Of a DNA stretch of 64,000 nucleotides, positions 44,942 to 62,439 are shown one piece after another. The stretch is from Amycolatopsis sp. DSM 110486 (lineage in GTDB: Bacteria; Actinomycetota; Actinomycetes; Mycobacteriales; Pseudonocardiaceae): the NCBI RefSeq assembly GCF_019468465.1, contig NZ_CP080519.1, positions 1,131,001 through 1,195,000 on the forward strand, read 5' to 3'. Below the pieces are notes generated by a model. The model saw only the letters and a program-made list of their open reading frames with translations, searched no databases and was not told where the DNA came from. The translations under genes and the position numbers were made by a program. Position 1 is the first letter of the stretch. Every line of letters starts with the position of its first letter.

Positions 44942-45049
44942 GCACCGAATGGCCCACGGATTCCCCGGCCCAATGGACCACAGATAGCCGCCACCTGCCT
45001 CGTAGCGTGGTTGTCAGCAGAGAAGTTTTCCCAATTACCAGGAGAAGTG

Positions 45050-45631
45050 ATGAAGGTATTCCTCGCCGGCGCTTCCGGCGTTCTCGGTCAGCGGCTCATC
45101 CCGCGGCTGGTCGAGGCCGGACACGAAGTCGGCGCCATGACGCGCTCGTCGGCCAAAATGGAAGGGCTCGTCCACCTCGGCGCCGTCGCGATCCTGTGCG
45201 ACGTCTTCGACCGCGACGAACTCGTGCAGACGGTCCACGACTTCAAACCGGACGTCATCCTCAATGAGCTGACCGACCTGCCGGACGACGTCACGAAGAT
45301 CGGCGATCACGGCGAGCGCAACGCGCGTATCCGCACCGAGGGCAACCAGAACCTGATCGAAGCCGCCCGCAAGAGCGGCTCCCCGAAGATCCTGGCCCAG
45401 AGCGTCGCCTGGCAGCTGCCCGACGGCCCCGACGCACTCGCCGTCGCGGAGCTCGAGCGCTCCGTCCTCGCCGAGGGTGGCGTGGTGCTCAGCTACGGGC
45501 AGTTCTACGGCTCCGGCACCTACAACGAGCAGGAAAAGCCCGCGGAACCCCGGGTCCACATCGACCGCGCGGCCGAACGCACGGTGGAGGCCCTTGACGA
45601 GCCCTCGGGCGTCGTCGTCATCGTCGACTGA
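45050..45631 (+). CDS. Short NAD(P)-binding protein, NmrA/epimerase-like
   Basis: 193 residues from ATG 45050 (CAGGAG upstream). Rossmann start MKVFLAGASGVLGQRLIPRL; then VEAGHEVGAMTRSSAKMEGL, PDVILNELTDLPDD, RTEGNQNLIEAARKSGSPKI. It ends at VEALDEPSGVVVIVD, about 100 residues earlier than many relatives, so it may lack part of the substrate domain. Single gene; the downstream amidase ruin is convergent. Confidence 0.82.
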   Translation: MKVFLAGASGVLGQRLIPRLVEAGHEVGAMTRSSAKMEGLVHLGAVAILCDVFDRDELVQTVHDFKPDVILNELTDLPDDVTKIGDHGERNARIRTEGNQNLIEAARKSGSPKILAQSVAWQLPDGPDALAVAELERSVLAEGGVVLSYGQFYGSGTYNEQEKPAEPRVHIDRAAERTVEALDEPSGVVVIVD

Positions 45632-49529: not shown

Positions 49530-51035
49530 TTAGCTCGGCACCGCTGCCGCCCGGGTGTGGCCGAGCGATGCGGTCACCCCGACGAGGACAGCGCACACGA
49601 GTGCGACACCACCCGCTACGAGAGAGGTGAGATGCAGTGCGCTGAGGAACGCGCTGCGGGCAGCGGTGATCCCCGGGTGGTCGTGCAGCACGGCCAACGT
49701 GCCGGACAGGGACTGCCGCGCGTCCCCCTGTTCCCCGGTGGGCAGTGTGGCGAGGGCCGGCCCGACGTCGGAGCCGTATGCGGACCACAGCAATGAACCG
49801 AGAACCGCCACACCCAATGCGCTGGAAACCTGTCGCGCGGTGTTCAGGAGCGCCGATCCGGCACCGACACGGGAGCCCGGCACCGTGCTCATCGCCGCGG
49901 TCGTTCCAGGGCTGAGCACCAGGGCGAAACCGAGTGCGAGCGCCAAAAAGACCGAGAGGATGAGCACGACCGAGGTCGTCATCGAGTAGAACGCGATCAC
50001 CGTCATCGCGACCGTGATCAGCAGCAGGCCGGCGGCGATGGTCGGTCCTGTTCCGAGGCGCTCCACCAGTCGCCGCGATATCGGAGCCCCGATCACGAGC
50101 CCGGCGGACATCGGGATGAAGAGCAGACCGGTCTGGAACGGCGTGTAGCCGCGGGCGACCTGCAGGTAGAAGGTCAGCAGGTACATGGCGCCGAACACGA
50201 CCAGCGCGGCGACGCTCAGCGCGAGCACGGACATCGCGAAGCCCCGGTCGCGGAACAACCGTACGTCCGCGAGCGCATCGTCTCGTCGCCCCTCGCTCAC
50301 GATCAGCACCGCCAGGAGCGCCAGCCCGACCACCACGGGGCAGAGCGTCGTGAAGCCCAGCCAATCACTGGTCTGGCCCCCGTCGAGCACCCCGAGGACG
50401 AGCAGCCCGATTCCTGCGATGGACAGGACCACAGGCAGGAATCGGAGTTCTCCGGTCCCAGACGCCGGCAGGCGGGGAACGACGATGAGCGACGCGAGAA
50501 GTGCGATCAGTGCCAGAACACCGACGAGCACGAGCACGGAGCCCCACCACAGGCCCGCACTGAGCATCAGACCCCCCGCCAGCGGGCCGGCCGAGATCGA
50601 GATTCCGGACGCGGCCGCCCACACCACAATCGCTCCGGCACGCTTCTGCGTCGGGTACAGGCGCAGGATGATCGCGAGCGTCGTCGGCATGATCGCCGCG
50701 GCGAAGACCCCCATCAGCGCGCGCATCGCGATGACGAACCCCACCGTCGTGGGGAGCGACGCGAGCGCGGTCACGACGATGAATCCCGCCAGCCCGACCA
50801 GCAGAGTTCGGCGAAGCCCGAATCGATCGCCCACCGTGCCGGCGATCAACAGGAATCCCGCGAACGTCAAGGTGTAGCTGTTGAGCACCCACTGCTGCCC
50901 CACGTTGGTCAGAGCGAGGGCCTGCGTCATCTCCGGCAGTGCGACGTTGAGGATCGTGCTTCCCAGCAGCACCACCGACACGGCGACCACGAGCGAGGAC
51001 AACGCGGCAACCCGGCGCCCACTCGAAATCTCCAC
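49530..51035 (-). CDS. MFS drug transporter, DHA2 (14-helix) type
   Basis: 501 residues from GTG 51035 with GGAGG upstream. Landmarks: LNVALPEMTQALALTNVGQQ then WVLNSYTLTFAGFLLIAGTV, GDRFGLRRTLLVGLAGF (loop 2-3 motif), WAAASGISISAGPLAGGLML (motif C). EmrB/QacA-like multidrug exporter. It forms an operon with the TetR gene downstream. Confidence 0.92.
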   Translation of the reverse strand: MEISSGRRVAALSSLVVAVSVVLLGSTILNVALPEMTQALALTNVGQQWVLNSYTLTFAGFLLIAGTVGDRFGLRRTLLVGLAGFIVVTALASLPTTVGFVIAMRALMGVFAAAIMPTTLAIILRLYPTQKRAGAIVVWAAASGISISAGPLAGGLMLSAGLWWGSVLVLVGVLALIALLASLIVVPRLPASGTGELRFLPVVLSIAGIGLLVLGVLDGGQTSDWLGFTTLCPVVVGLALLAVLIVSEGRRDDALADVRLFRDRGFAMSVLALSVAALVVFGAMYLLTFYLQVARGYTPFQTGLLFIPMSAGLVIGAPISRRLVERLGTGPTIAAGLLLITVAMTVIAFYSMTTSVVLILSVFLALALGFALVLSPGTTAAMSTVPGSRVGAGSALLNTARQVSSALGVAVLGSLLWSAYGSDVGPALATLPTGEQGDARQSLSGTLAVLHDHPGITAARSAFLSALHLTSLVAGGVALVCAVLVGVTASLGHTRAAAVPS

Positions 51036-52717: not shown

Positions 52718-53923
52718 TCAGGCGACCGGCGAGAACACGAGGCCGCCGTTGTGCCCGCCGAAGCCGAAGCTGTTGGAGAGCACGGGTCCCGGCGTCCACG
52801 GCGTGGGTTCACGGGGCACGTCGATGTCGAGCACCGGATCCTGTGTGGACAGTCCGAGCGTCGGCGGGATCAGCTCGTGCGCCATCGTCAGCGCCACGGC
52901 GACGGCCTCCACTGCGCCGGCCGAGCCGAACGAGTGCCCGGTGGCGCCCTTGATGCTGGTCACCAGCGGCCTGGAGGCACCGAAGACGCGGCGGATGGCG
53001 TGGGCCTCGGCGGCGTCGTTGAGGGCCGTCGAGGTGCCGTGGGCGTTGATGTGGGTGATGTCCCGCGGTGCGTAGCCGGCGTCCTCGATCGCCATGCGCA
53101 TGCAGCGCTCGGCGCCGGCGCCGTTCGGGGCGGGCGCGGTGACGTGGTAGGCGTCGGCGGTCGAGGCGGTGCCGTCGATGGTCAGGTAGATGCTCGCGCC
53201 GCGCTCCAGCGCGAGCTCCAGCGGCTCGAGCACGAGGATGCCGGCCGCTTCCGACGCGGCGAGGCCGTCTCTGTCCACATCGAACGGACGCGAGATCCCG
53301 CTGCGGCTCAGTGCGCGCATGTTGGTGAACCCGGCCACGCACACGGGCGTGAGGCTCGAGTCGCTGCCGCCCGCGAGCACCAGGTCGGCGGCGCCCGAGG
53401 CGATGAGCCTGGCGCCCGCGGCGATCGCGTCGGTGCCGGCCGCGCAGGCCGTGGTGATCACCGACGCGCCGCCCTGGAAGCCGTAGCGGATGCTGAGCGC
53501 CGCGGCGCCCGCGTTCGGCATCGTCATGGGCACGGTGTGCGGCGACACCTTGCGCTCGCCCTGCGCGGCCAGGACCGCGGCCTGCGACTCCAGAGTGGAC
53601 ACGCCACCGATGCCCGTGCCGAGCGAGACGGCGGCGCGTTCGGCGTCGAGCACCGTCACCGCCGGCTCGATCTCGCCGGTCAGCAGCCCCGCGTCCGCCA
53701 GCGCCTCGTCGGCGGCCGCGACCGCCATCTGCGTCGCCAGGTCCGCCGTGCGCGCCACCTTGTGCGACATCCAGCGCCGCGGGTCGAAGCCGCTGAGCCG
53801 CCGCACGTTCGCCGCGGCGGCAGGACGCGACAGCCCGTCCCAGAACTCCTTCACGCCGATGCCGGCCGGCGACACGACACCGATCCCGGTCACCGCGACG
53901 CGCCGGTTGAGGACTGGCTTCAT
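52718..53923 (-). CDS. Beta-ketoacyl-ACP synthase II-like (KAS)
   Basis: 401 residues. Active-site Cys in [16 protein letters not shown], His in [20 protein letters not shown], Lys/His in [20 protein letters not shown]; glycine-rich end [16 protein letters not shown]. Claisen condensation of malonyl-ACP with an acyl primer. Single KAS genes outside fab operons often serve special lipids. ATG 53923 after GAAGGAG. A 24-bp inverted repeat shared with two other promoters lies at 53955-53978. Confidence 0.92.
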
Positions 53924-53954: not shown

Positions 53955-53978
53955 CTGGCTAGGCTTTTGCACAGTCAG
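53955..53978 (-). promoter_or_regulatory. Shared regulon box, KAS/LLM intergenic region
   Basis: Minus strand CTGACTG-N10-TAGCCAG. Same architecture as the boxes at 56380-56403 and 61874-61897. It lies 32 bases upstream of the KAS start and 136 bases upstream of the divergent LLM gene. Confidence 0.72.
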
Positions 53979-54113
53979 GTGTAGTCTACGGGACGACCGC
54001 GCCGGAGCCGCACCGATCGAACCCAAGTCACACCGGCGGTTGACGAGTGAGTTGCCTTGCGCAACCCTGAGGGCACGCAGCAACTTCACCGGGGCAGGAA
54101 AGCAGGCGGAACC

Positions 54114-55166
54114 GTGCTTGTCGGCATCTACAACGAGTACAGCGCGAAAGGCAGCTTCCGCGACCTGGCCGGCGACGTCGTCGCCTACGAACGCGCCGGC
54201 GCCGACATCGCCTATGTGGCCGAGGTGTACACGTTCGACGCGGTGAGCCAGCTCGGCGCGCTCGCCGCGCTCACGAGCACCATCCGCATCGGCTCGGCGA
54301 TCCTGCCGATCTACACGCGCACGCCGTCTCTGATCGCGATGACCGCCGCGGGCCTGGACCACGTGAGCGAGGGCCGGTTCATCCTCGGCCTCGGCGCGTC
54401 GGGGCCGCAGGTGATCGAAGGGTTCCACGGCGTGCCGTACACCGCGCCGCTCGGGCGGACCCGCGAGGTCGTCGAGATCTGCCGCCAGGTCTGGCGGCGC
54501 GAACGCGTCGTCCACCAGGGCAAGCACTACCGCATCCCACTGCCGGAGGACGAGGGCACCGGCCTCGGCAAGCCGCTCAAGCTGATCAACACGCCGGTGC
54601 GCAGCCGGATCCCGATCCTGATCGCGTCGATCGGACCCAAGAACGTCGCCATGACCGCCGAGCTCGCGGACATCTGGCAGCCGTTCTTCTTCCTGCCGGA
54701 GAAGGCGAAGGACGTCTGGGGCCAGTCGCTGGCCGACGGCGCCGGGAAGCGCGCCGACGACCTGCCACCGCTGCAGATCGAGGCCCAGGCGGTCTTCCGC
54801 ATCACCGACGACCCCCGGCCGATGCTGGACGCGATGCGCCCGACGCTCGCGCTGTACATCGGCGGCATGGGCGCGAAGGGCCACAACTTCTACAACGACC
54901 TCGTGCGCCGCTACGGCTTCGAAGCCGAGGCAGAGAAGATCCAGGACCTCTACCTGGCCGGCAAGAAGCAGGCAGCTGAAGCGGCGGTCCCGGAAGAACT
55001 GCTCCGCTCGGTCTCGTTGATCGGCCCCGAAAGCCACGTCCGCGAGCGCATCGCCGCCTACCAGGAAGCCGGAGTCACCACGCTCACCATCACCCCCGCC
55101 GGCGCGACGCGGGACGAGCGGGCCGGCGTGGTCGAACAGTTCCGCACGCTGGTGGACAAGAGCTGA
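54114..55166 (+). CDS. LLM-class (F420-dependent) oxidoreductase
   Basis: 350 residues from GTG 54114; upstream codons in frame lack similarity. TIM-barrel luciferase-like fold: VGIYNEYSAKGSFRDLAGDV, AAGLDHVSEGRFILGLGASG, SIGPKNVAMTAELADIWQPF. Similar to F420-dependent oxidoreductases of mycobacteria; substrate unknown. Divergent from KAS, with the box at 53955 between, and ending at the hairpin 55405-55437 after a small gene. Confidence 0.9.
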   Translation: MLVGIYNEYSAKGSFRDLAGDVVAYERAGADIAYVAEVYTFDAVSQLGALAALTSTIRIGSAILPIYTRTPSLIAMTAAGLDHVSEGRFILGLGASGPQVIEGFHGVPYTAPLGRTREVVEICRQVWRRERVVHQGKHYRIPLPEDEGTGLGKPLKLINTPVRSRIPILIASIGPKNVAMTAELADIWQPFFFLPEKAKDVWGQSLADGAGKRADDLPPLQIEAQAVFRITDDPRPMLDAMRPTLALYIGGMGAKGHNFYNDLVRRYGFEAEAEKIQDLYLAGKKQAAEAAVPEELLRSVSLIGPESHVRERIAAYQEAGVTTLTITPAGATRDERAGVVEQFRTLVDKS

Positions 55167-55168
55167 CT

Positions 55169-55390
55169 GTGCTGCCCTCACTCGCGAGCCTGGTCGAATC
55201 GGGTCTCACCGCGGCGGCGTTGCTTTCCGCGGCCGCACCCGGCGCGGTGTTCGACAGCGTGGTCACCGACTGGCCGGGCCTGTCCCGCGAGCAGTCGGCG
55301 ACCCTGCTCGCCGCGGAGACAACCGGTATCGGGAACGCCGAGATCACCGAGCGTTTCATCGTCGAGAAGCTCACTGGTACCACGGCCTGA
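55169..55390 (+). CDS. Small hypothetical protein after the LLM gene
   Basis: 73 residues, GTG 55169 two bases after the LLM stop: LASLVESGLTAAALLSAAAP, VTDWPGLSREQSATLLAAET, AEITERFIVEKLTGTT. Predicted all-helical and soluble. Not recognised. Its close spacing and the terminator right after it support it as a real operon member. Confidence 0.55.
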   Translation: MLPSLASLVESGLTAAALLSAAAPGAVFDSVVTDWPGLSREQSATLLAAETTGIGNAEITERFIVEKLTGTTA

Positions 55391-55404
55391 GGGCCCCGCC
55401 GACG

Positions 55405-55437
55405 GATGCCGGTGCGCGGAAAGTGCGCGCCGGCATC
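55405..55437 (+). terminator. Hairpin after the LLM operon
   Basis: GATGCCGG (55405-55412) pairs with CCGGCATC (55430-55437); inner GCGC pairs extend the stem around GGAAAGT. Confidence 0.65.
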
Positions 55438-55458
55438 CTGTGGGTTCTCGGGCGCGGG

Positions 55459-56360
55459 TCAGAGGTAGCTGTCGTAGTCCGGCTGCCCGGCCCAGAAGTA
55501 GTCGGGGCCGAGCTCTTCGCCGAGACGGGAGCGCGGGACTGGAGCGAGCTCAGCCTGGACCGCGCCAACCACCGCATCGGCTACTTCACCGGCGACATCC
55601 AGGGCAAGCCCGTCTCGATCGCGTCCGTGATGCGCTTCGACGAGCACGGGCTGGCCGACGTCCTCGCGTGCTCACGTCCGGCGGAAGCCACGGCACGGCC
55701 CAGGCCTCGGGCGGCAGGTCGTCGAACGCCGCCTTCGCGCGGTTTCGCAGCGTGGTGAAGGGCTGGGTGCTGTTGAAGAAGCTCTTGACCGTGGTCAGGC
55801 GCCGGGTTTCGTCGCCGGTGGCGAGGAGGATCTGCCGGATGGGCTCGCCCTCGATCTCGCCGGCGAGCATCAGGCCCTCGGCGCGTTCGCCGGAACTCCG
55901 CCACTTTGCCGTCCAGGCCATAGGCCGTGCGGGTCAGCTCTTCGTTGCCGATGAAGTTGAAGATCGACGACGGCAGGTCGTAGGTCACGCGGGCGCGGCC
56001 GTCGGCGTCTTCGTAGACCATGATCCGGTTCGGCGCCTCGAGGCCGAAGCGCGTGTCGTAGCGCATCATGGTCTCGGCGATGAGCGGGTTGCCGTAGACG
56101 TACTTCTTGGCCTTCACCTGGTGCCCGTAGAAGCCCATCCAGCGGCCGTGGTCGACCTCGAAGAAGCGCAGCATCCCGCTCGGGCCGAGCTGCTTGGTGA
56201 TCTCCGCGTTCCACTCCTCGACGGTCTCCGACGCGGCGAGGATGTCGTTGAACTTGCCCCGCTCGACGTCCCCGAGCACGGCGTCGAGCTCCGCCACCAC
56301 TTCCTCGTAGGTCTTGTCGCTGATGTACTCGTAGTTTTCCACCGTGTACTTGGTTTTCAC
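55459..56360 (-). pseudogene. DUF302-domain protein, broken in its C-terminal half
   Basis: From GTG 56360 (GGGAG upstream): YTVENYEYISDKTYEEVVAE, LGPSGMLRFFEVDHGRWMGF, YGNPLIAETMMRYDTRFGLE, VTYDLPSSIFNFIGNEELTR. This is a DUF302-like fold of unknown role. After about residue 150 (near 55905) the frame shifts; a second frame has LMLAGEIEGEPIRQILLATG, VKSFFNSTQPFTTLRNRAKA, and a third ends YFWAGQPDYDSYL at 55459. Whether these belong to one protein is unclear. Meanwhile the plus strand at 55500-55680 reads coding-like (RIGYFTGDIQGKPVSIASVM), hinting at a local rearrangement. The N-terminal domain alone may still be made. Confidence 0.55.
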
Positions 56361-56379
56361 GGATTTCTCCCATCGGGAT

Positions 56380-56403
56380 CTGCCTAAGTCAAAGCATAGT
56401 CAG
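56380..56403 (-). promoter_or_regulatory. Shared regulon box upstream of the DUF302 gene
   Basis: Minus strand CTGACTA-N10-TAGGCAG, 20 bases upstream of the GTG. Matches the boxes at 53955 and 61874. Confidence 0.75.
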
Positions 56404-56418
56404 CCTAGCACCGGAAGA

Positions 56419-59400
56419 TCAGATCAGACCGAGATTCGCGAGGTCCGAGGCGTACTTCTCGATCAGCTCGGCAGTCACGTGCGGAATGTCCGCATCCGCG
56501 CCCACGCGGGCCTTCCGCACGGCCGCACGGAAGCGATCCGCCGGAATGAGGGCCCCCGCAACGGGTTTCTCCGGCTCCGTGTAGGCGTGCAGCAACGGCA
56601 GGAGCGAGTGTTGCTTCTGCTTCTCCGGCAACGCGCGGATCGCCGTCTCGAACCGCTCGAACCACGTGTGGTAGTCCTCGACACGGCTGATCCGGTGGCC
56701 GGCCGCGACGAGCCAGTCCACACAGGTGTCGAGCGAGATGCCGTCCTCGTGCGAGTTCAGCACGTTGTAGGTCCGGTAACCCTCGGTCTCCAGGCCGAGC
56801 GCCGTGATCGCCTCGGCCGTGAAGTCCACGGGCAGCCCGTCGAAGTGCGCCGGTCCCGGTCCACTGTAGAACGACCGCGGCGCGATCCCCGTGACGATCA
56901 GGCTCAGCAGCAGGCGCGTGAACATGTCGGGCACGTTCAGCTGCCCGGCGTAGCGGCTGTGCGCCAGGATCAGGTCCGAACGGAACGTGGTCACCGGCAG
57001 GTCCACCGCATCGCCGGCCTCGCGCAGCAGCACCTCCCCCGCCCACTTGCTGGTGCCGTAGCCGTTGGCGTAGCTGTCGTCGAGTGTCCTCGAAGGACTC
57101 GTCTCGCGGATGTCCGACACCTCGTCACCCGAAGTGGCCTGCGCGGCCACGGCGAAGGTCGAGAGGTAGATGACCGGCTTGAGCCGCGTGGTGATCGCGA
57201 GCCGGATCAGCTCCGCGGTGCCCACCACGTTGGGGCCGAAGAGCTGGTCGTAGGGCAGCACGTGGTTGACCAGCGCGGCCGGGTGCACGATGAGGTCGAC
57301 AGTGTCGGCCAGCCGCCGCCACGCCGGCGCTTCGAGACCGAGGTCGGCCGAGCCGATGTCGCCGGCCAGCACCTCCAGGTGATCGGCGGCCAGCTCGCAG
57401 AAGTGCTGCAGCAGAGCGATATCGCCCGTGTCGAACGCTTCCTCGAGCCGCGCGTACGCCGCTTCCGCGGTGCGCCCGCGCACGAGGCAGACGAGTTTGC
57501 CGCCGGTCTCGGCGAGGCGCTCCAGCCATTCGAGGCAGAGGAAGCGGCCAAGGTAACCGTTGGCTCCGGTCAGCAGGACCGTGCGCACGGTGCCCGTGGG
57601 GCGAGGCAGATTCCGGGCCGACGCCAGGGTTTCGGCGTCGATGAACTTGTCGAGCGTGAGCTCGGCGGCGTGGACGACGGTGCTCTCGGCGCCGTGCACC
57701 GTGGCGAACGTCGGCCGCTTCACGCCCGGCTTCCGCGCGTCCTCGATGTGCCGGGCGATCGCTCGCAGGTCGTTGGCCGGGCTGATCACCACGTCGACCG
57801 GAACGTCGACACCGAAGATGTCGCGCAGCAGGTTCGAGAACGACAGCGCCGACAGCGAGTCGCCGCCGAGGTCGCCGAAGTGGGCCTCCGGGCCCAGCTC
57901 CGCCGCCGACGCCCCGAGCAGGGCTTCCGCCGCCCGCGCCACCGTCTCCACCACCGGCCGGTCGCGCCCCAGCTGCCGCAGTTCCCGCAGCTCGCTGCCT
58001 TCGCGGTCGGCGATCTCGGCGTACAGCGCTTCCAGACGCTCGCCGTAGTGCTTCTTCAACGCCGGGCGCTGCAGCTTCTTGATCCCGGTGAGCAGACCGT
58101 TGACGGTACTGAACGGATCGGTCTCGACCAGGAAGTCGCGCGGGATCTCGTACGAGTTGAGCTCGGCCTCCTTCGCCGCCTGCTGCAGCGAATCGCTCAA
58201 TCGGCGCTTCAGTGCCGCGGGGTCACTCTCGGCGAGCGCTGCCCGCGTCGGCACGATCACCGCGAGCAGGTGGGAGCGTTCGCTGCTGCCGTAGACGTAG
58301 ATCTGCTCGACCAGCGGCGCCGCCCCGAACATGGCCTCCAGTTTGGACACCGCGACGAACTCGCCCTGCGACAGCTTCAGCACGTTCTTGCGCCGGTCGA
58401 CATACACCAGCTCGCTCGTGCTGTGCTCCGCCATGATGTCGCCGGTGTTGTAGTAGCCCTCGGCATCGAAGACCTCGGCCGTAGTGTCCGGCCGGCGGTA
58501 GTACCCGGTGACCAGCGTGCCGCCCTTGATCACCAGCTCACCGCGCGGGTGCGGCAGGTCGGTGGAGAAGTAGCCGAGCTCCGGCACGTCGAGCAGCCGG
58601 TAGCCGGACACGCGGTGCTGCCACATCTTCCCGTCGAGCATGACGACACCGCCGGTTTCGGTGGCGCCGTAGCCGTCGTGCATCGGGACATGCAGCAGGG
58701 ACTCCATGAACGTGGTCAGCTCCGCCGAAAGCGGCGCGGACCCGAAGCCGGCCCAGAGGATCCGGTCGCCGAGGGTGTTCTCGCGCAGCTCGGTCTTCAC
58801 CTCTTCGTCGAGGCCCTCGCGGAACCCGTCGGCGGCGACGCGGCCGTCGAGCTCACTGCGGTAGTGCTGGAACAGCATCTCGCAGATCCGCGGCACGACC
58901 AGCAGCTCGGTCGGGCGCACCAGCGACTAGTCCTCCAGCATGGTGGACAGGTCGCTCTTGCCGACCAGGTAGACGGTTCCGCCGCACCCCAGCGTGCTGG
59001 CCATCACGTTCTGGCCGACGACGTGGCTCATCGGCAGGAAGTCGAGCACGATCGCGGGATTGTCGCGGCCGGGCATGAAATCGCGCCACAGCTCGCGGGA
59101 GACGCGTTCGGTGTACATGGCGCCCTTGGGTGTGCCGGTGCTGCCCGAGGTGTAGATGAGCATCGCGAGCGGATCGGCGTCCGCGGGATCGGCGGTGGCG
59201 AGGGGCGCGGCCGGGAGCGCGCGACCACGTTCGACGACGGTGGGCAGGACGTCGAGCGCGACGTCGCTGCCCGCCTCGGAAAGGCGTGTCCGCGCTGCTT
59301 CGACGCTGTCGCGGTGACCGTCGAGCTCGGCGGTGTGGTCGAAGACCACGAGCCGGAGCACCGACGGGCTCGCGAGGACGAGGTCGACGGCCGTGCCGAG

Positions 59401-59925
59401 GTACTCCGGGCTCGCGACGAGCACCTAGGCGCCGGTCTCCTCGACGATGGGCTTGAGGGCGCCCGCGGCAGCCCCGGCCTGCAGTGGCACGGAAACCGCG
59501 CCGAGCCGGATGCAGGCGAGTTCGACCGCGACATAGTCGGAGCTGACGAAACCCAGTGTGGCGACGAAATCGCCCCGGCGCAGCGGCGTGTGGGGGTCGT
59601 GGTGCCATTCGCTCGCGACGGCGGTCGCGCGGGCCCAGAGCTCGCCGTAGCTGATCGTCTCGAAGCGCTGCAGCAACCGGACCTCGGTCCGGCCCGTGGC
59701 CGGATCGGTGAAGATCTCCCGCGCGCGCTCGCCCAGCGCGGGCCGATCGGCATAACCCGCCCTGACGGCGGCCACGGTCTCCGCCAGCGAAAGGCCCGGC
59801 CGGAACGCCGCCTCGCGGACGTCGGCCCGGGGAATCGCGTCGCGAACCTGTGAATCATTTTCGCACAGCTGCGCCGTCCGCCGCTCGTACTGCTCCCGGG
59901 CGTCGCGTGGATAGGTAGTGGTCAT
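56419..59925 (-). pseudogene. car: Carboxylic acid reductase interrupted by two in-frame TAG codons
   Basis: CAR reduces a carboxylic acid to the aldehyde with ATP and NADPH. ATG 59925 has GGGAGG six bases upstream. One phase stays open for 1,168 codons except for TAG at codon 167 (59427-59425) and codon 333 (58929-58927). Adenylation domain: [78 protein letters not shown]. Carrier domain: [20 protein letters not shown]. Reductase: [40 protein letters not shown]. No frameshift anywhere and full family length. Both stops lie inside CTAG. TAG ends normal genes nearby, so readthrough is not expected; recent nonsense mutations, sequence error or suppression are the options. It needs a phosphopantetheinyl transferase, which is not in the window. 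Confidence 0.85.
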
Positions 59926-60271
59926 GACTTTCCTCCCCGAAAGTGTGTGGTCGGCCGGAATCCAGGCCAGGAAGAGGGTTGAGAAACACAACCTACTACG
60001 GGGTGGAAAGTTTTTGCCATCCCCCAATGTGATCTTCAGGGCGCCGTGTCCTATTGGTCGGGAAAAAGGATCGAGTATTTTTTCCGACTGGCGAAATTCC
60101 CGAAGGAGGACAGCACAAAGGCCGTCCTGGCCACTCTGCCAGGACGGTTTCGGAGGATTGATCGTGCTTTTTGACTAACGCTTTCAGGACTCCGGCGGAC
60201 GGAGGACCGTGAGCAGAAGATCGGCGCTCCGGACGAAACTCATCTGCTCGTAGATCCGCGCGGCGACCCGG
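59926..60271. other. CAR promoter region with an inverted repeat
   Basis: No gene. GGTTG (59977-59981) and CAACC (59989-59993) form an inverted repeat about 55 bases upstream of the CAR start, a candidate operator. An AT-rich run (about 60060-60085) is unusual here. Confidence 0.4.
60122..60147 (-). terminator. Hairpin terminator after the MFS gene
   Basis: CCGTCCTGG (60122-60130) pairs perfectly with CCAGGACGG (60139-60147) around an 8-base loop. It would end the minus-strand MFS transcript before the CAR promoter. Confidence 0.7.
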
Positions 60272-61855
60272 TCATGTCCGTGCTCCTTCCGCGCGACGGC
60301 GGACGGCCGTGTGCCGCACGAAGGCGACGGTCGGCACCGCCATGACCACGAGGACGATGCCGCCCACGGTCAGTCCCGAGTGGACGGCGTCGGTGAACGC
60401 GGAGGCCGCGGAGCTCGTGACCGTCGTCTTCAGGGAGGCCGGAACTCCGGCGGTGCTGCCGCCGTGACTCGCGCCGTCCACGATCTGGCGGGTCACCCCG
60501 GCGGGCATCCGGGCGTCGAGGAGCCGGTCGGACAGGTTCTTCGGGAACTCGGTCGTGACGATCGTGCCCAGCACACTCGGGCCGAGCACGCTGCCCAGCT
60601 GCCGGAACATGTTCACCGCGGCGCTGGCCATGCCCGCCTGCTGCGCGGGCACGCTGTTCACCGCGGCCGCGGTCGAGGGCGCCACCAGCAGACCGGAACC
60701 GATACCGACGATCAGCAGGCCGGGCCACACCTGCCCGAACCCCGGCGTCGGCCCCGTCACCAGCAGAAGCAGCGCGCCGGCACCCATGATCACCAGCCCG
60801 CCGGTGAGCATGGTGACGACGCCGACGCGCCGCACCAGCCGGGCCGCGACGGCGCTGACCACGATGTAGGTGCCGAACATGACCAGCATCCGTACGCCGG
60901 TGGCCAGCGCGCCCAGGTGCTGCACGCGTTCGAGATACAGCACGCTCACCAGCGAGATCCCGACGAAGCCGAACATCGTGGTGGTCGCGACGCCCATGAC
61001 CGCCGCGAACGACGGGCTCTTGAACAGCCGCAGGTCCAGCATCGGGTCATGGTGGCGCAGCTCCAGGCGGACGAAAGCCGCGAGTGACACCGCGAAAACC
61101 ACGTACACCGCGATGATCTGCGCGGCCGCGTAGCCGACGGATCCGCCTTCGATGATCGCGTACGTCGCCGACGCGACGACGATCGTGCCCAGCACCACGC
61201 CGGCCGGGTCGAGCCGCCGCGTCGGGTGCTTGCTCTCCGGGACCAGCATCGGCGTCAGCGCGATCGTGACGATGCCGAGCACGACGTTGGTCAGGAACAC
61301 CGCGTGCCAGCTCGAGTGGTCGAGGAGGATGCCCGCCACGGGCGGGCCGATCGCGAGGCCCAGCCCCGAGCAGCTCGCCCACACGCTGATCGCGCTCGTG
61401 CGTTGGCGCGGATCGGTGAAGGAGTGGCTGACGATCGACAGGCTGGCGGGGAGGATCGCGGCGCCGCCGACGCCCATGAGCGCCTGGGCCGCGATCAGCA
61501 AGCCCGCGCTGTCGGAGAAGAACGCCAGCGCGCTGCTCGCGGCGAATACGACCACCCCGGCGAGGAACACCGCGCGGCGGCCGATCAGGTCGCCCAGCGT
61601 GCCCGCCGTAAGCACCAGGCTCACGACGACGAGCGTGTACGCGCTGCTGACCCACACCAGCTGAGCCGACGACGTGTGCAGATCGGACTGGATGGCCGGC
61701 AGCGCGGAGATCATCGAGGAGACGTTGACGAACGCCATCATCACGCCGAGGCAGACCACTGCCAGGGCCCACCACCGGCCTCGCGCGGAAGCTTCGGCTT
61801 CGGGTCTCGCGGTCCCTGACCTGGTCACGGACACCTGCTGACTCTCCAAATGCAT
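60272..61855 (-). CDS. MFS transporter, DHA2 type
   Basis: About 527 residues from ATG 61855 (a GTG three codons upstream is possible). Fourteen predicted helices. Landmarks: VSSMISALPAIQSDLHTSSA, WVSSAYTLVVVSLVLTAGTL then GDLIGRRAVFLAG, SVWASCSGLGLAIGPPVAGI (motif C). Exports drugs or toxic metabolites. Divergent from the HxlR regulator with the shared box between them, so almost certainly HxlR-controlled. Confidence 0.9.
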   Translation of the reverse strand: MHLESQQVSVTRSGTARPEAEASARGRWWALAVVCLGVMMAFVNVSSMISALPAIQSDLHTSSAQLVWVSSAYTLVVVSLVLTAGTLGDLIGRRAVFLAGVVVFAASSALAFFSDSAGLLIAAQALMGVGGAAILPASLSIVSHSFTDPRQRTSAISVWASCSGLGLAIGPPVAGILLDHSSWHAVFLTNVVLGIVTIALTPMLVPESKHPTRRLDPAGVVLGTIVVASATYAIIEGGSVGYAAAQIIAVYVVFAVSLAAFVRLELRHHDPMLDLRLFKSPSFAAVMGVATTTMFGFVGISLVSVLYLERVQHLGALATGVRMLVMFGTYIVVSAVAARLVRRVGVVTMLTGGLVIMGAGALLLLVTGPTPGFGQVWPGLLIVGIGSGLLVAPSTAAAVNSVPAQQAGMASAAVNMFRQLGSVLGPSVLGTIVTTEFPKNLSDRLLDARMPAGVTRQIVDGASHGGSTAGVPASLKTTVTSSAASAFTDAVHSGLTVGGIVLVVMAVPTVAFVRHTAVRRRAEGART

Positions 61856-61873
61856 AGCCAGCACGCTAACAGC

Positions 61874-61897
61874 CTGACTATGGTCAAAGCTAGACAG
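61874..61897 (+). promoter_or_regulatory. Shared regulon box between MFS and HxlR
   Basis: CTGACTA-N10-TAGACAG. Third copy of the box. It overlaps a smaller palindrome TGACTATGGTCA (61875-61886); another, TGACTGTCA, lies at 61904-61912 over the regulator start. Position between divergent regulator and pump makes HxlR the likely binder. Confidence 0.78.
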
Positions 61898-61911
61898 GTA
61901 CAGTGACTGTC

Positions 61912-62439
61912 ATGGCACACACACAGGAGCCCGAGGCGGACCGTCCCGTGGTGACGCGCGTCGGCCGGTTCGTCGACCGCGACGCGTGGACTGCCGAGGG
62001 CTGGTGCAAGATCGAGCGCGCGCTGGAGCTCGTCGGCACCCGGTCGGCGATGATCCTGCTGCGCGAGGCGTTCTACGGTGGCCGGCGCTTCGACGAGCTC
62101 ACCCGGCGCACCGGCCTGAGCGACGCGGTCGCGGCGAAGCGGCTCAAGCAGCTCGTCGACGACGGCCTGCTGCGCCAGCAGCCCTACCGCGAGCCCGGAT
62201 CGCGCACCCGCCACGAGTACGTGCTGACCGAGCAGGGCCGTTCGCTGTTCCCCGTGGTGGTCGCGATGATGAAGTGGGGCGGCACTTTGGCGGGTCCGAC
62301 CGGCGGCGTCGAACTGGTGCACGCCGGCTGTGGTGAACCGCTCCTCGCCGCCGTGCGCTGCGCGGCGGGCCACGACGTCACCATGGAGGACACCGAGGCG
62401 CAGATCTCCCGCGACGCCAAACGGGCGCGGCGGGCGTAG
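61912..62439 (+). CDS. HxlR-family transcriptional regulator
   Basis: 175 residues from ATG 61912 (GTG 61903 also possible). Winged helix: WCKIERALELVGTRSAMILL, REAFYGGRRFDELTRRTGLS, AKRLKQLVDDGLLRQQPYRE, YVLTEQGRSLFPVVVAMMKW. The Cys just before the first helix (EGWCKIE) is where redox- or electrophile-sensing HxlR proteins carry their sensor thiol. C-terminal extension of about 60 residues includes three more Cys. An aldehyde signal would suit the nearby CAR gene (inference). Confidence 0.9.
   Translation: MAHTQEPEADRPVVTRVGRFVDRDAWTAEGWCKIERALELVGTRSAMILLREAFYGGRRFDELTRRTGLSDAVAAKRLKQLVDDGLLRQQPYREPGSRTRHEYVLTEQGRSLFPVVVAMMKWGGTLAGPTGGVELVHAGCGEPLLAAVRCAAGHDVTMEDTEAQISRDAKRARRA

Follow-up and report, generated by a model that had tools for sequence, protein, structure and literature searches.

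Binding of DNA repeats by HxlR proteins is already known, and small repressors also control DHA2 efflux pumps of the LfrA type, where the regulator belongs to a family other than HxlR. We analyzed a 64,000-nucleotide stretch of the Amycolatopsis sp. DSM 110486 genome (the window; GCF_019468465.1, contig NZ_CP080519.1, positions 1,131,001 to 1,195,000), in which an hxlR gene stands divergent from a DHA2-like pump gene and a 24-bp palindrome occurs four times. We estimate at about 0.7 the probability that these palindromes (hereafter boxes) are operators of the adjacent HxlR, which would shut off its own gene, the pump gene and the genes for a FabF-like beta-ketoacyl synthase (KAS) and a DUF302 protein until a signal releases it.

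In Bacillus subtilis, HxlR is reported as a positive regulator of hxlAB (PMC4776306, PMC7835342) that formaldehyde activates through Cys11–Lys13 (PMC7835342). By comparison, the present HxlR has no lysine at position +2 from its cysteine, has other putative targets, and its boxes lie over the putative promoter core. The thiol/quinone regulators YodB, HypR and QsrR differ from the subfamily studied here, which carries an additional C-terminal His/Cys/Cys/His set in 50 of 58 aligned members; their operators also differ from the boxes in sequence and spacing. The locus resembles the repressor-controlled LfrA-type systems in that a small regulator is divergent from an LfrA/EmrB-like pump, and is distinct from them in its regulator family, its paired operators and the enzymes among its further putative targets. 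The pump scores 220 bits against the LfrA model (cut-off 825) and is therefore not LfrA. The operator, its pairing and the residue switch described below were absent from the titles and abstracts listed in searches of the open literature, which covers few subscription journals and in which 40 of the 84 papers that mention HxlR were listed, and DUF302 and HxlR appear together in no paper of the open literature searched.

The boxes in the window and in the genome

The regulator gene and the four boxes are arranged as follows (window coordinates).

61912..62439, plus strand: hxlR gene, 175 amino acids; Pfam HxlR 62.9 bits, cut-off 20.8
61874..61897, plus strand: box 1, hxlR-proximal putative operator, CTGACTATGGTCAAAGCTAGACAG; matrix rank 3; 12/12 arm bases in the relative G028
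61838..61861, plus strand: box 2, pump-proximal putative operator, CTGACTCTCCAAATGCATAGCCAG; matrix rank 2; unnoticed in the sequence-only reading that preceded this analysis
53955..53978, minus strand: KAS box, putative operator upstream of KAS, CTGACTGTGCAAAAGCCTAGCCAG; matrix rank 1
56380..56403, minus strand: DUF302 box, putative operator upstream of DUF302, CTGACTATGCTTTGACTTAGGCAG; matrix rank 4

The sequence-only reading had reported three boxes, and all three match CTGACTR-N10-TAGNCAG without mismatch, at 53955–53978 (minus), 56380–56403 (minus) and 61874–61897 (plus). Its placement of boxes between divergent genes is correct for those at 53955 and 61874, and its claim that the boxes are not a copied segment holds, as their spacers differ. 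The fourth box, at 61838–61861 (plus), has one mismatch to this pattern and starts 36 bp before the box at 61874.

A loose search allowing up to three mismatches is unremarkable, with 20 matches in the window against a shuffle mean of 13.0 and 6 of 100 shuffles reaching 20. At the strict threshold of at least 11 of the 12 fixed arm bases, four boxes fall within 8.05 kb, compared with one match in a single 3-Mb simulation, which sets a rough rate. In the whole genome (11.0 Mb), CTGNCT-N12-AGNCAG occurs at six places, four of which are these boxes, supporting a box set that is local in this genome; the reversed-pattern control gives two places. Two further exact matches (5325746 and 8160592, the latter preceding an SNF2-like gene by our reading of the frames) are no more than this control yields, and a wider regulon in the genome was rejected on that ground. 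A relaxed pattern gave four places in the genome, three of them boxes described here (control 3), and matched five of nine relatives at six places, three at hxlR or KAS and three elsewhere.

An independent matrix (half-site CTGRCTW) was built from 39 boxes of 23 hxlR loci elsewhere, with this genome and G028 excluded and the same-genus G039 included. It places the four boxes at ranks 1–4 of all window positions, with 27.1, 25.9, 24.0 and 21.0 bits and the next position at 15.7, so that the KAS and DUF302 boxes (ranks 1 and 4) score like those at hxlR.

Boxes at hxlR loci of other genomes and the residue 71 switch

Homologue searches in 150 relatives and in 394 class genomes matched far more proteins than there are loci examined here. 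We aligned 58 hxlR loci, comprising 30 best matches from the relatives, 26 from the class genomes and two second copies (this genome and G028). The C-type motif was set from the window, and the G-type motif was derived from the homologue loci themselves. A box of at least 10 of 12 arm bases lies close to hxlR in 42 of the 58 loci, where chance alone would give well below one (our estimate from a simulated 0.009 per kb). Tandem pairs occur at 32 loci, spaced by 32–38 bp in 31 and by 43 bp in one. None of the nine loci whose protein has Leu74 carries a box. Plasmid loci that played no part in setting the motif (the best 10 of 482 records) show the same division, with a box in 6/6 without Leu74 and 0/4 with it. 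At 10 distant HxlR loci (35–39% identity) from a search of genome contigs, the surrounding DNA examined held no box of at least 11 arm bases. Boxes accompany genes that have been rearranged: in G366 a box pair precedes the pump gene and a single box precedes hxlR, and in G039 one box precedes hxlR and one the next gene.

The half-site differs between loci at its fifth position, and this difference follows residue 71 of the regulator. C-type half-sites, CTGRCT (CTGRCTA), accompany Asp or Glu71 in 25 of 25 loci (Lys in none), and G-type half-sites, CTGRGT (CTGRGTA), accompany Lys71 in 17 of 17 (Asp/Glu in none; Fisher p 4e-12, a statistic that ignores kinship). Asp/Glu with cytosine and Lys with guanine is a chemically sensible pairing. 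Sixteen G-type loci belong to family f8, which we judge to be mycobacteria from the names of proteins 79–82% identical to one member, and one belongs to family f41. Thiolase genes neighbour C-type boxes (in L087 and L133) as well as G-type ones; therefore, box type follows the regulator and not the target. The recurrence of boxes at hxlR promoters of this subfamily in other families, together with the tracking of residue 71, bears out the earlier assignment of the boxes to HxlR and supports their reading as putative operators of the subfamily of the adjacent HxlR. An HxlR paralogue (L077, G000:C1:8872000-8890000; 52%) has Pro71 and a weak mixed-type box pair (9/12), and perhaps has a separate specificity.

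The regulator itself carries the Pfam PF01638 domain at 62.9 bits against a cut-off of 20.8 and has an AF2 model (pLDDT 86.4) whose fold matches the winged-helix HxlR/DUF24 structures. The recognition helix spans residues 71–83 of the model (mean pLDDT 97), and residue 71 is its first residue. The N-terminal cysteine invoked in the sequence-only reading corresponds to Cys32, which is present in 57 of 58 aligned homologues. The Cys-x-Lys pair of the formaldehyde-sensing type is missing: the sequence reads Cys32-Lys33-Ile34, and none of the 58 has Lys at position 34. In addition, H137/C140/C150/H154 (H-x2-C-G-x8-C-x3-H; window 62320–62373) is complete in 50 of 58 proteins and entirely absent from the other eight. 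This set looks like a metal or thiol/redox site, and Cys32 and the C-terminal set are candidate sensors.

Promoter layout, putative targets and competing explanations

The putative –10 elements and target genes are located as follows.

61899..61904, plus strand: putative –10 TACAGT of hxlR, 7 nt before ATG 61912 (leaderless mRNA); from sequence and the layout in boxed loci
61863..61868, minus strand: putative –10 TAGCGT of the pump gene, inside the 12-bp gap separating boxes 1 and 2; from sequence and the inter-box gap test
53983..53988, minus strand: putative –10 TAGACT of KAS, 4 nt upstream of the KAS box; from sequence, present in G028 too
56402..56407, minus strand: putative –10 TAGGCT of DUF302, overlapping the DUF302 box; from sequence only, uncertain
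60272..61855, minus strand: DHA2-like MFS efflux pump gene; MFS_1 185 bits, EmrB-type 193.5 bits (below the 230.2 cut-off)
52718..53923, minus strand: FabF-like beta-ketoacyl synthase (KAS); PRK07314 subfamily 389.4 bits, cut-off 387
55581..56360, minus strand: DUF302 gene; PF03625 38 bits, cut-off 23; domain residues 70–129

TATGCT within the DUF302 box is an alternative –10 candidate, an in-frame GTG at 61834 is an alternative start of the pump gene, and KAS reaches 402.2 bits against the fabF equivalog model, below its cut-off of 493.75. Of the 42 boxed loci, 21 have a TANNNT element that ends 6–7 nt before an in-frame hxlR start, compared with a mean of 1.8 and a highest count of 6 in 500 shuffles; such spacing is expected of a leaderless hxlR mRNA. 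An opposite-strand TANNNT lies in the gap of 15 of the 32 box pairs, against a mean of 3.1 and a highest count of 9 in 1000 shuffles. Box 1 would cover the hxlR –35 region and probably also that of the pump gene, and box 2 would cover the transcription start and ribosome site of the latter. Because the boxes overlie putative –35/start regions, their positions suggest repression through promoter occlusion.

In the mechanism we favor, an HxlR dimer would bind each inverted repeat, gripping both CTGRCTW half-sites, with residue 71, which opens the recognition helix, helping to read the fifth half-site base (C by Asp/Glu, G by Lys). Two dimers on the hxlR/pump boxes, 36 bp apart, would close both promoters, resulting in autorepression, and single boxes at the transcription start would repress KAS and DUF302. 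A signal, probably acting via Cys32 and/or the C-terminal His/Cys set, would release HxlR and turn on the pump, KAS and DUF302 genes together.

The relative G028 offers a natural comparison. Window positions 55291–61800 (~6.5 kb, comprising the carboxylic acid reductase (CAR) frame, DUF302 and the pump gene except its first codons) are missing from its locus, and the flanks are 92–93% identical between window and G028. The sole remnant is a 58-bp piece (55471–55528, 86%) in inverted orientation, so the junction is not clean. Because the start of the pump gene remains there, the segment was probably lost in G028 rather than gained in this genome. In the pump-side box of G028, 6 of 24 bases differ and the matrix score is 4.9 bits. 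By comparison, its hxlR box carries two changes, both at half-site fourth positions (21.6 bits), and its KAS box a single spacer change (26.2 bits). The pump-side box adjoins the break, and its six changes hint at lost selection.

The sequence-only reading proposed an HxlR regulon of KAS, an F420-type oxidoreductase (LLM), DUF302 and the pump around CAR. Matrix scores support the boxes at the hxlR promoter, the pump gene, KAS and DUF302; control of CAR is not supported, nor, so far, is control of LLM. No box precedes the CAR frame, which is interrupted by two in-frame TAG codons (59425–59427 and 58927–58929) and is otherwise open to its end, and CAR was rejected as the core of the regulon on these two grounds; the frame is probably a pseudogene. 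The LLM gene starts 136 bp from the KAS/LLM box. Its homologues in the genus, matched in 92 of 150 genomes, represent another copy (~65% identity, also in this genome at C1:10883612), and among 29 homologue loci (L138–L166) none has a box of at least 11 arm bases and three have a box of 10. KAS is found in 2 of 80 genus genomes, and the class search of 394 genomes returned only this one; KAS/HxlR co-occurrence was set aside as independent evidence since KAS is too rare. Among protein records, KAS and HxlR lie on contigs of equal size in Amycolatopsis rhabdoformis (10,405,981 bases) and A. sp. NPDC051903 (51,372 bases). A KAS paralogue in G028 (78%) has no box. Among 40 wider stretches, two of them not centred on an HxlR gene, hxlR has as neighbour a gene from the same blastp cluster as the window pump in 17, and one from a thiolase cluster in 12 (Pfam was run on three of the thiolases). 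Furthermore, DUF302 occurs inside two thiolase gene sets behind box pairs (f8 loci L081 and L126).

These data also bear on other explanations of the boxes. HxlR might bind its own promoter pair only, with the KAS and DUF302 boxes being effectless vestiges of gene shuffling. KAS and DUF302 are both accessory, the broken LLM neighbour in G028 (L068:9735-10783, which matches in two pieces) points to a decaying cluster there, and the DUF302 reading frame is doubtful close to its end by our reading. We nevertheless regard this as rather unlikely, as the matrix scores of the two boxes are on a par with those at hxlR and both boxes lie at putative –10/start regions, and the G028 KAS box retains its high score. 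Activation at some of these promoters, as by B. subtilis HxlR at hxlAB, has a precedent, but the boxes overlie putative –35/start regions instead of lying upstream of them, and we hold it to be slightly less plausible again. It is very improbable that the palindromes belong to another regulator with hxlR as just one further target. Similar palindromes do exist elsewhere, since 13 of 19 strict matches in the 150 relatives lie away from HxlR genes and this cluster, but seven of the 13 are one different palindrome, CTGTCTAGC-N6-GCTAGACAG, and boxes recur at hxlR homologues of several families, track residue 71 and are absent with Leu74. Chance recurrence or a copied segment in the window is contradicted and deserves practically no credence: the count is near chance when three mismatches are allowed, but strict matches are far above it and the spacers differ; the genome scan, the simulation and the matrix ranks rule out chance.

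Several observations weigh against operators of HxlR acting in repression. In the 150 relatives, CTGNCTA-N10-TAGNCAG occurs at 19 places compared with 32 for the reversed control (our table count), so that the strict pattern shows no genome-wide enrichment there, and only six of these places fall at an HxlR gene or within this cluster. The evidence for the boxes is their location, not their total number. The Leu74 split was defined only after both sets had been seen, and seven of the 49 proteins without Leu74 have no proximal box. Four of these seven have boxes before the upstream gene, which is thioesterase-like at two loci and encodes an NAD(P)-binding protein at two (L116, L117, L124 and L129; Pfam was run on L116 and L124 only). 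At L077 the pair is just under the threshold, and at L037 and L082 no box was seen. The C/G switch happened once or twice on the tree, and perhaps only once: with the helix columns left out, box type and residue 71 change together at two points, the second of which is the single, weakly supported row L013 (91/46). The box types are separated equally well by residues 113 and 117, which lie outside the helix. Because residue 71 is Pro or Ala in two proteins of the plasmid set, and two of the six boxes in that set fit both types equally, the residue 71 code is not the whole story. The –10 layout is mainly a C-type feature (hxlR, 17/25 vs 4/17 in G-type; gap, 14/17 vs 1/15), and a strict sigma-70 scan gave no promoter. 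Few genomes are available for comparison, with the KAS box in G028 only and the DUF302 box here only. The retained G028 boxes change no less than the flanks predict, so that only the pump-side box is informative, and modestly.

Wider scope and further features of the cluster

A broader proposal, to which we give even odds, is that actinobacterial HxlR proteins lacking Leu74 form a large subfamily with a common operator grammar, in which paired 24-bp palindromes are interleaved with the leaderless hxlR and divergent promoters and follow an Asp/Glu71–C5, Lys71–G5 code. Pumps, thiolases or a FabF-like synthase, thioesterases, NAD(P)-binding proteins and DUF302 would thereby be linked to one signal, which might be reactive compounds of an acyl or quinone-like kind or else agents that inhibit condensing enzymes. 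If so, regulons of many HxlR proteins would be predictable from sequence. HxlR-like proteins are common in the genus, with 14 to at least 23 matches (E ≤ 0.001) in many genomes, and to our knowledge the targets of most of them are not known; a conserved operator with a residue–base code would allow target lists to be drawn up from sequence. In addition, a putative regulator shared with an efflux pump would be assigned to the accessory FabF-like enzyme and to DUF302, a domain without known function, making the function of both testable through the inducer.

Two further reading frames lie in the cluster.

54114..55166, plus strand: F420-dependent LLM oxidoreductase, divergent from KAS; TIGR03559 (Rv3520c group) 484 bits, cut-off 335
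56419..59925, minus strand: carboxylic acid reductase (CAR) reading frame; NF041592 1397 bits for the C-terminal piece, cut-off 1300

Elsewhere in the window, a further DHA2-like pump gene lies at 49530–51035 and has no box. The NAD(P)-binding protein at 45011–45631 is homologous to the one encoded upstream of hxlR in L124 and L129, where boxes precede that gene; in the window no box lies near it. In other genomes, the palindrome that makes up seven of the strict matches away from HxlR genes recurs in 7 of 150 genomes, at loci L051–L057 (G140, G103, G132, G115, G124, G146 and G034). A strict box at G131:C36:46082-46105, with purines at both fourth positions, lies away from the HxlR locus found in G131 and possibly marks a second target there. 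Upstream of the LLM gene of the window, a second palindrome, GTTGC-N5-GCAAC (54051–54065), may be the site of some other regulator; in G028 its arms are intact and one spacer base differs.

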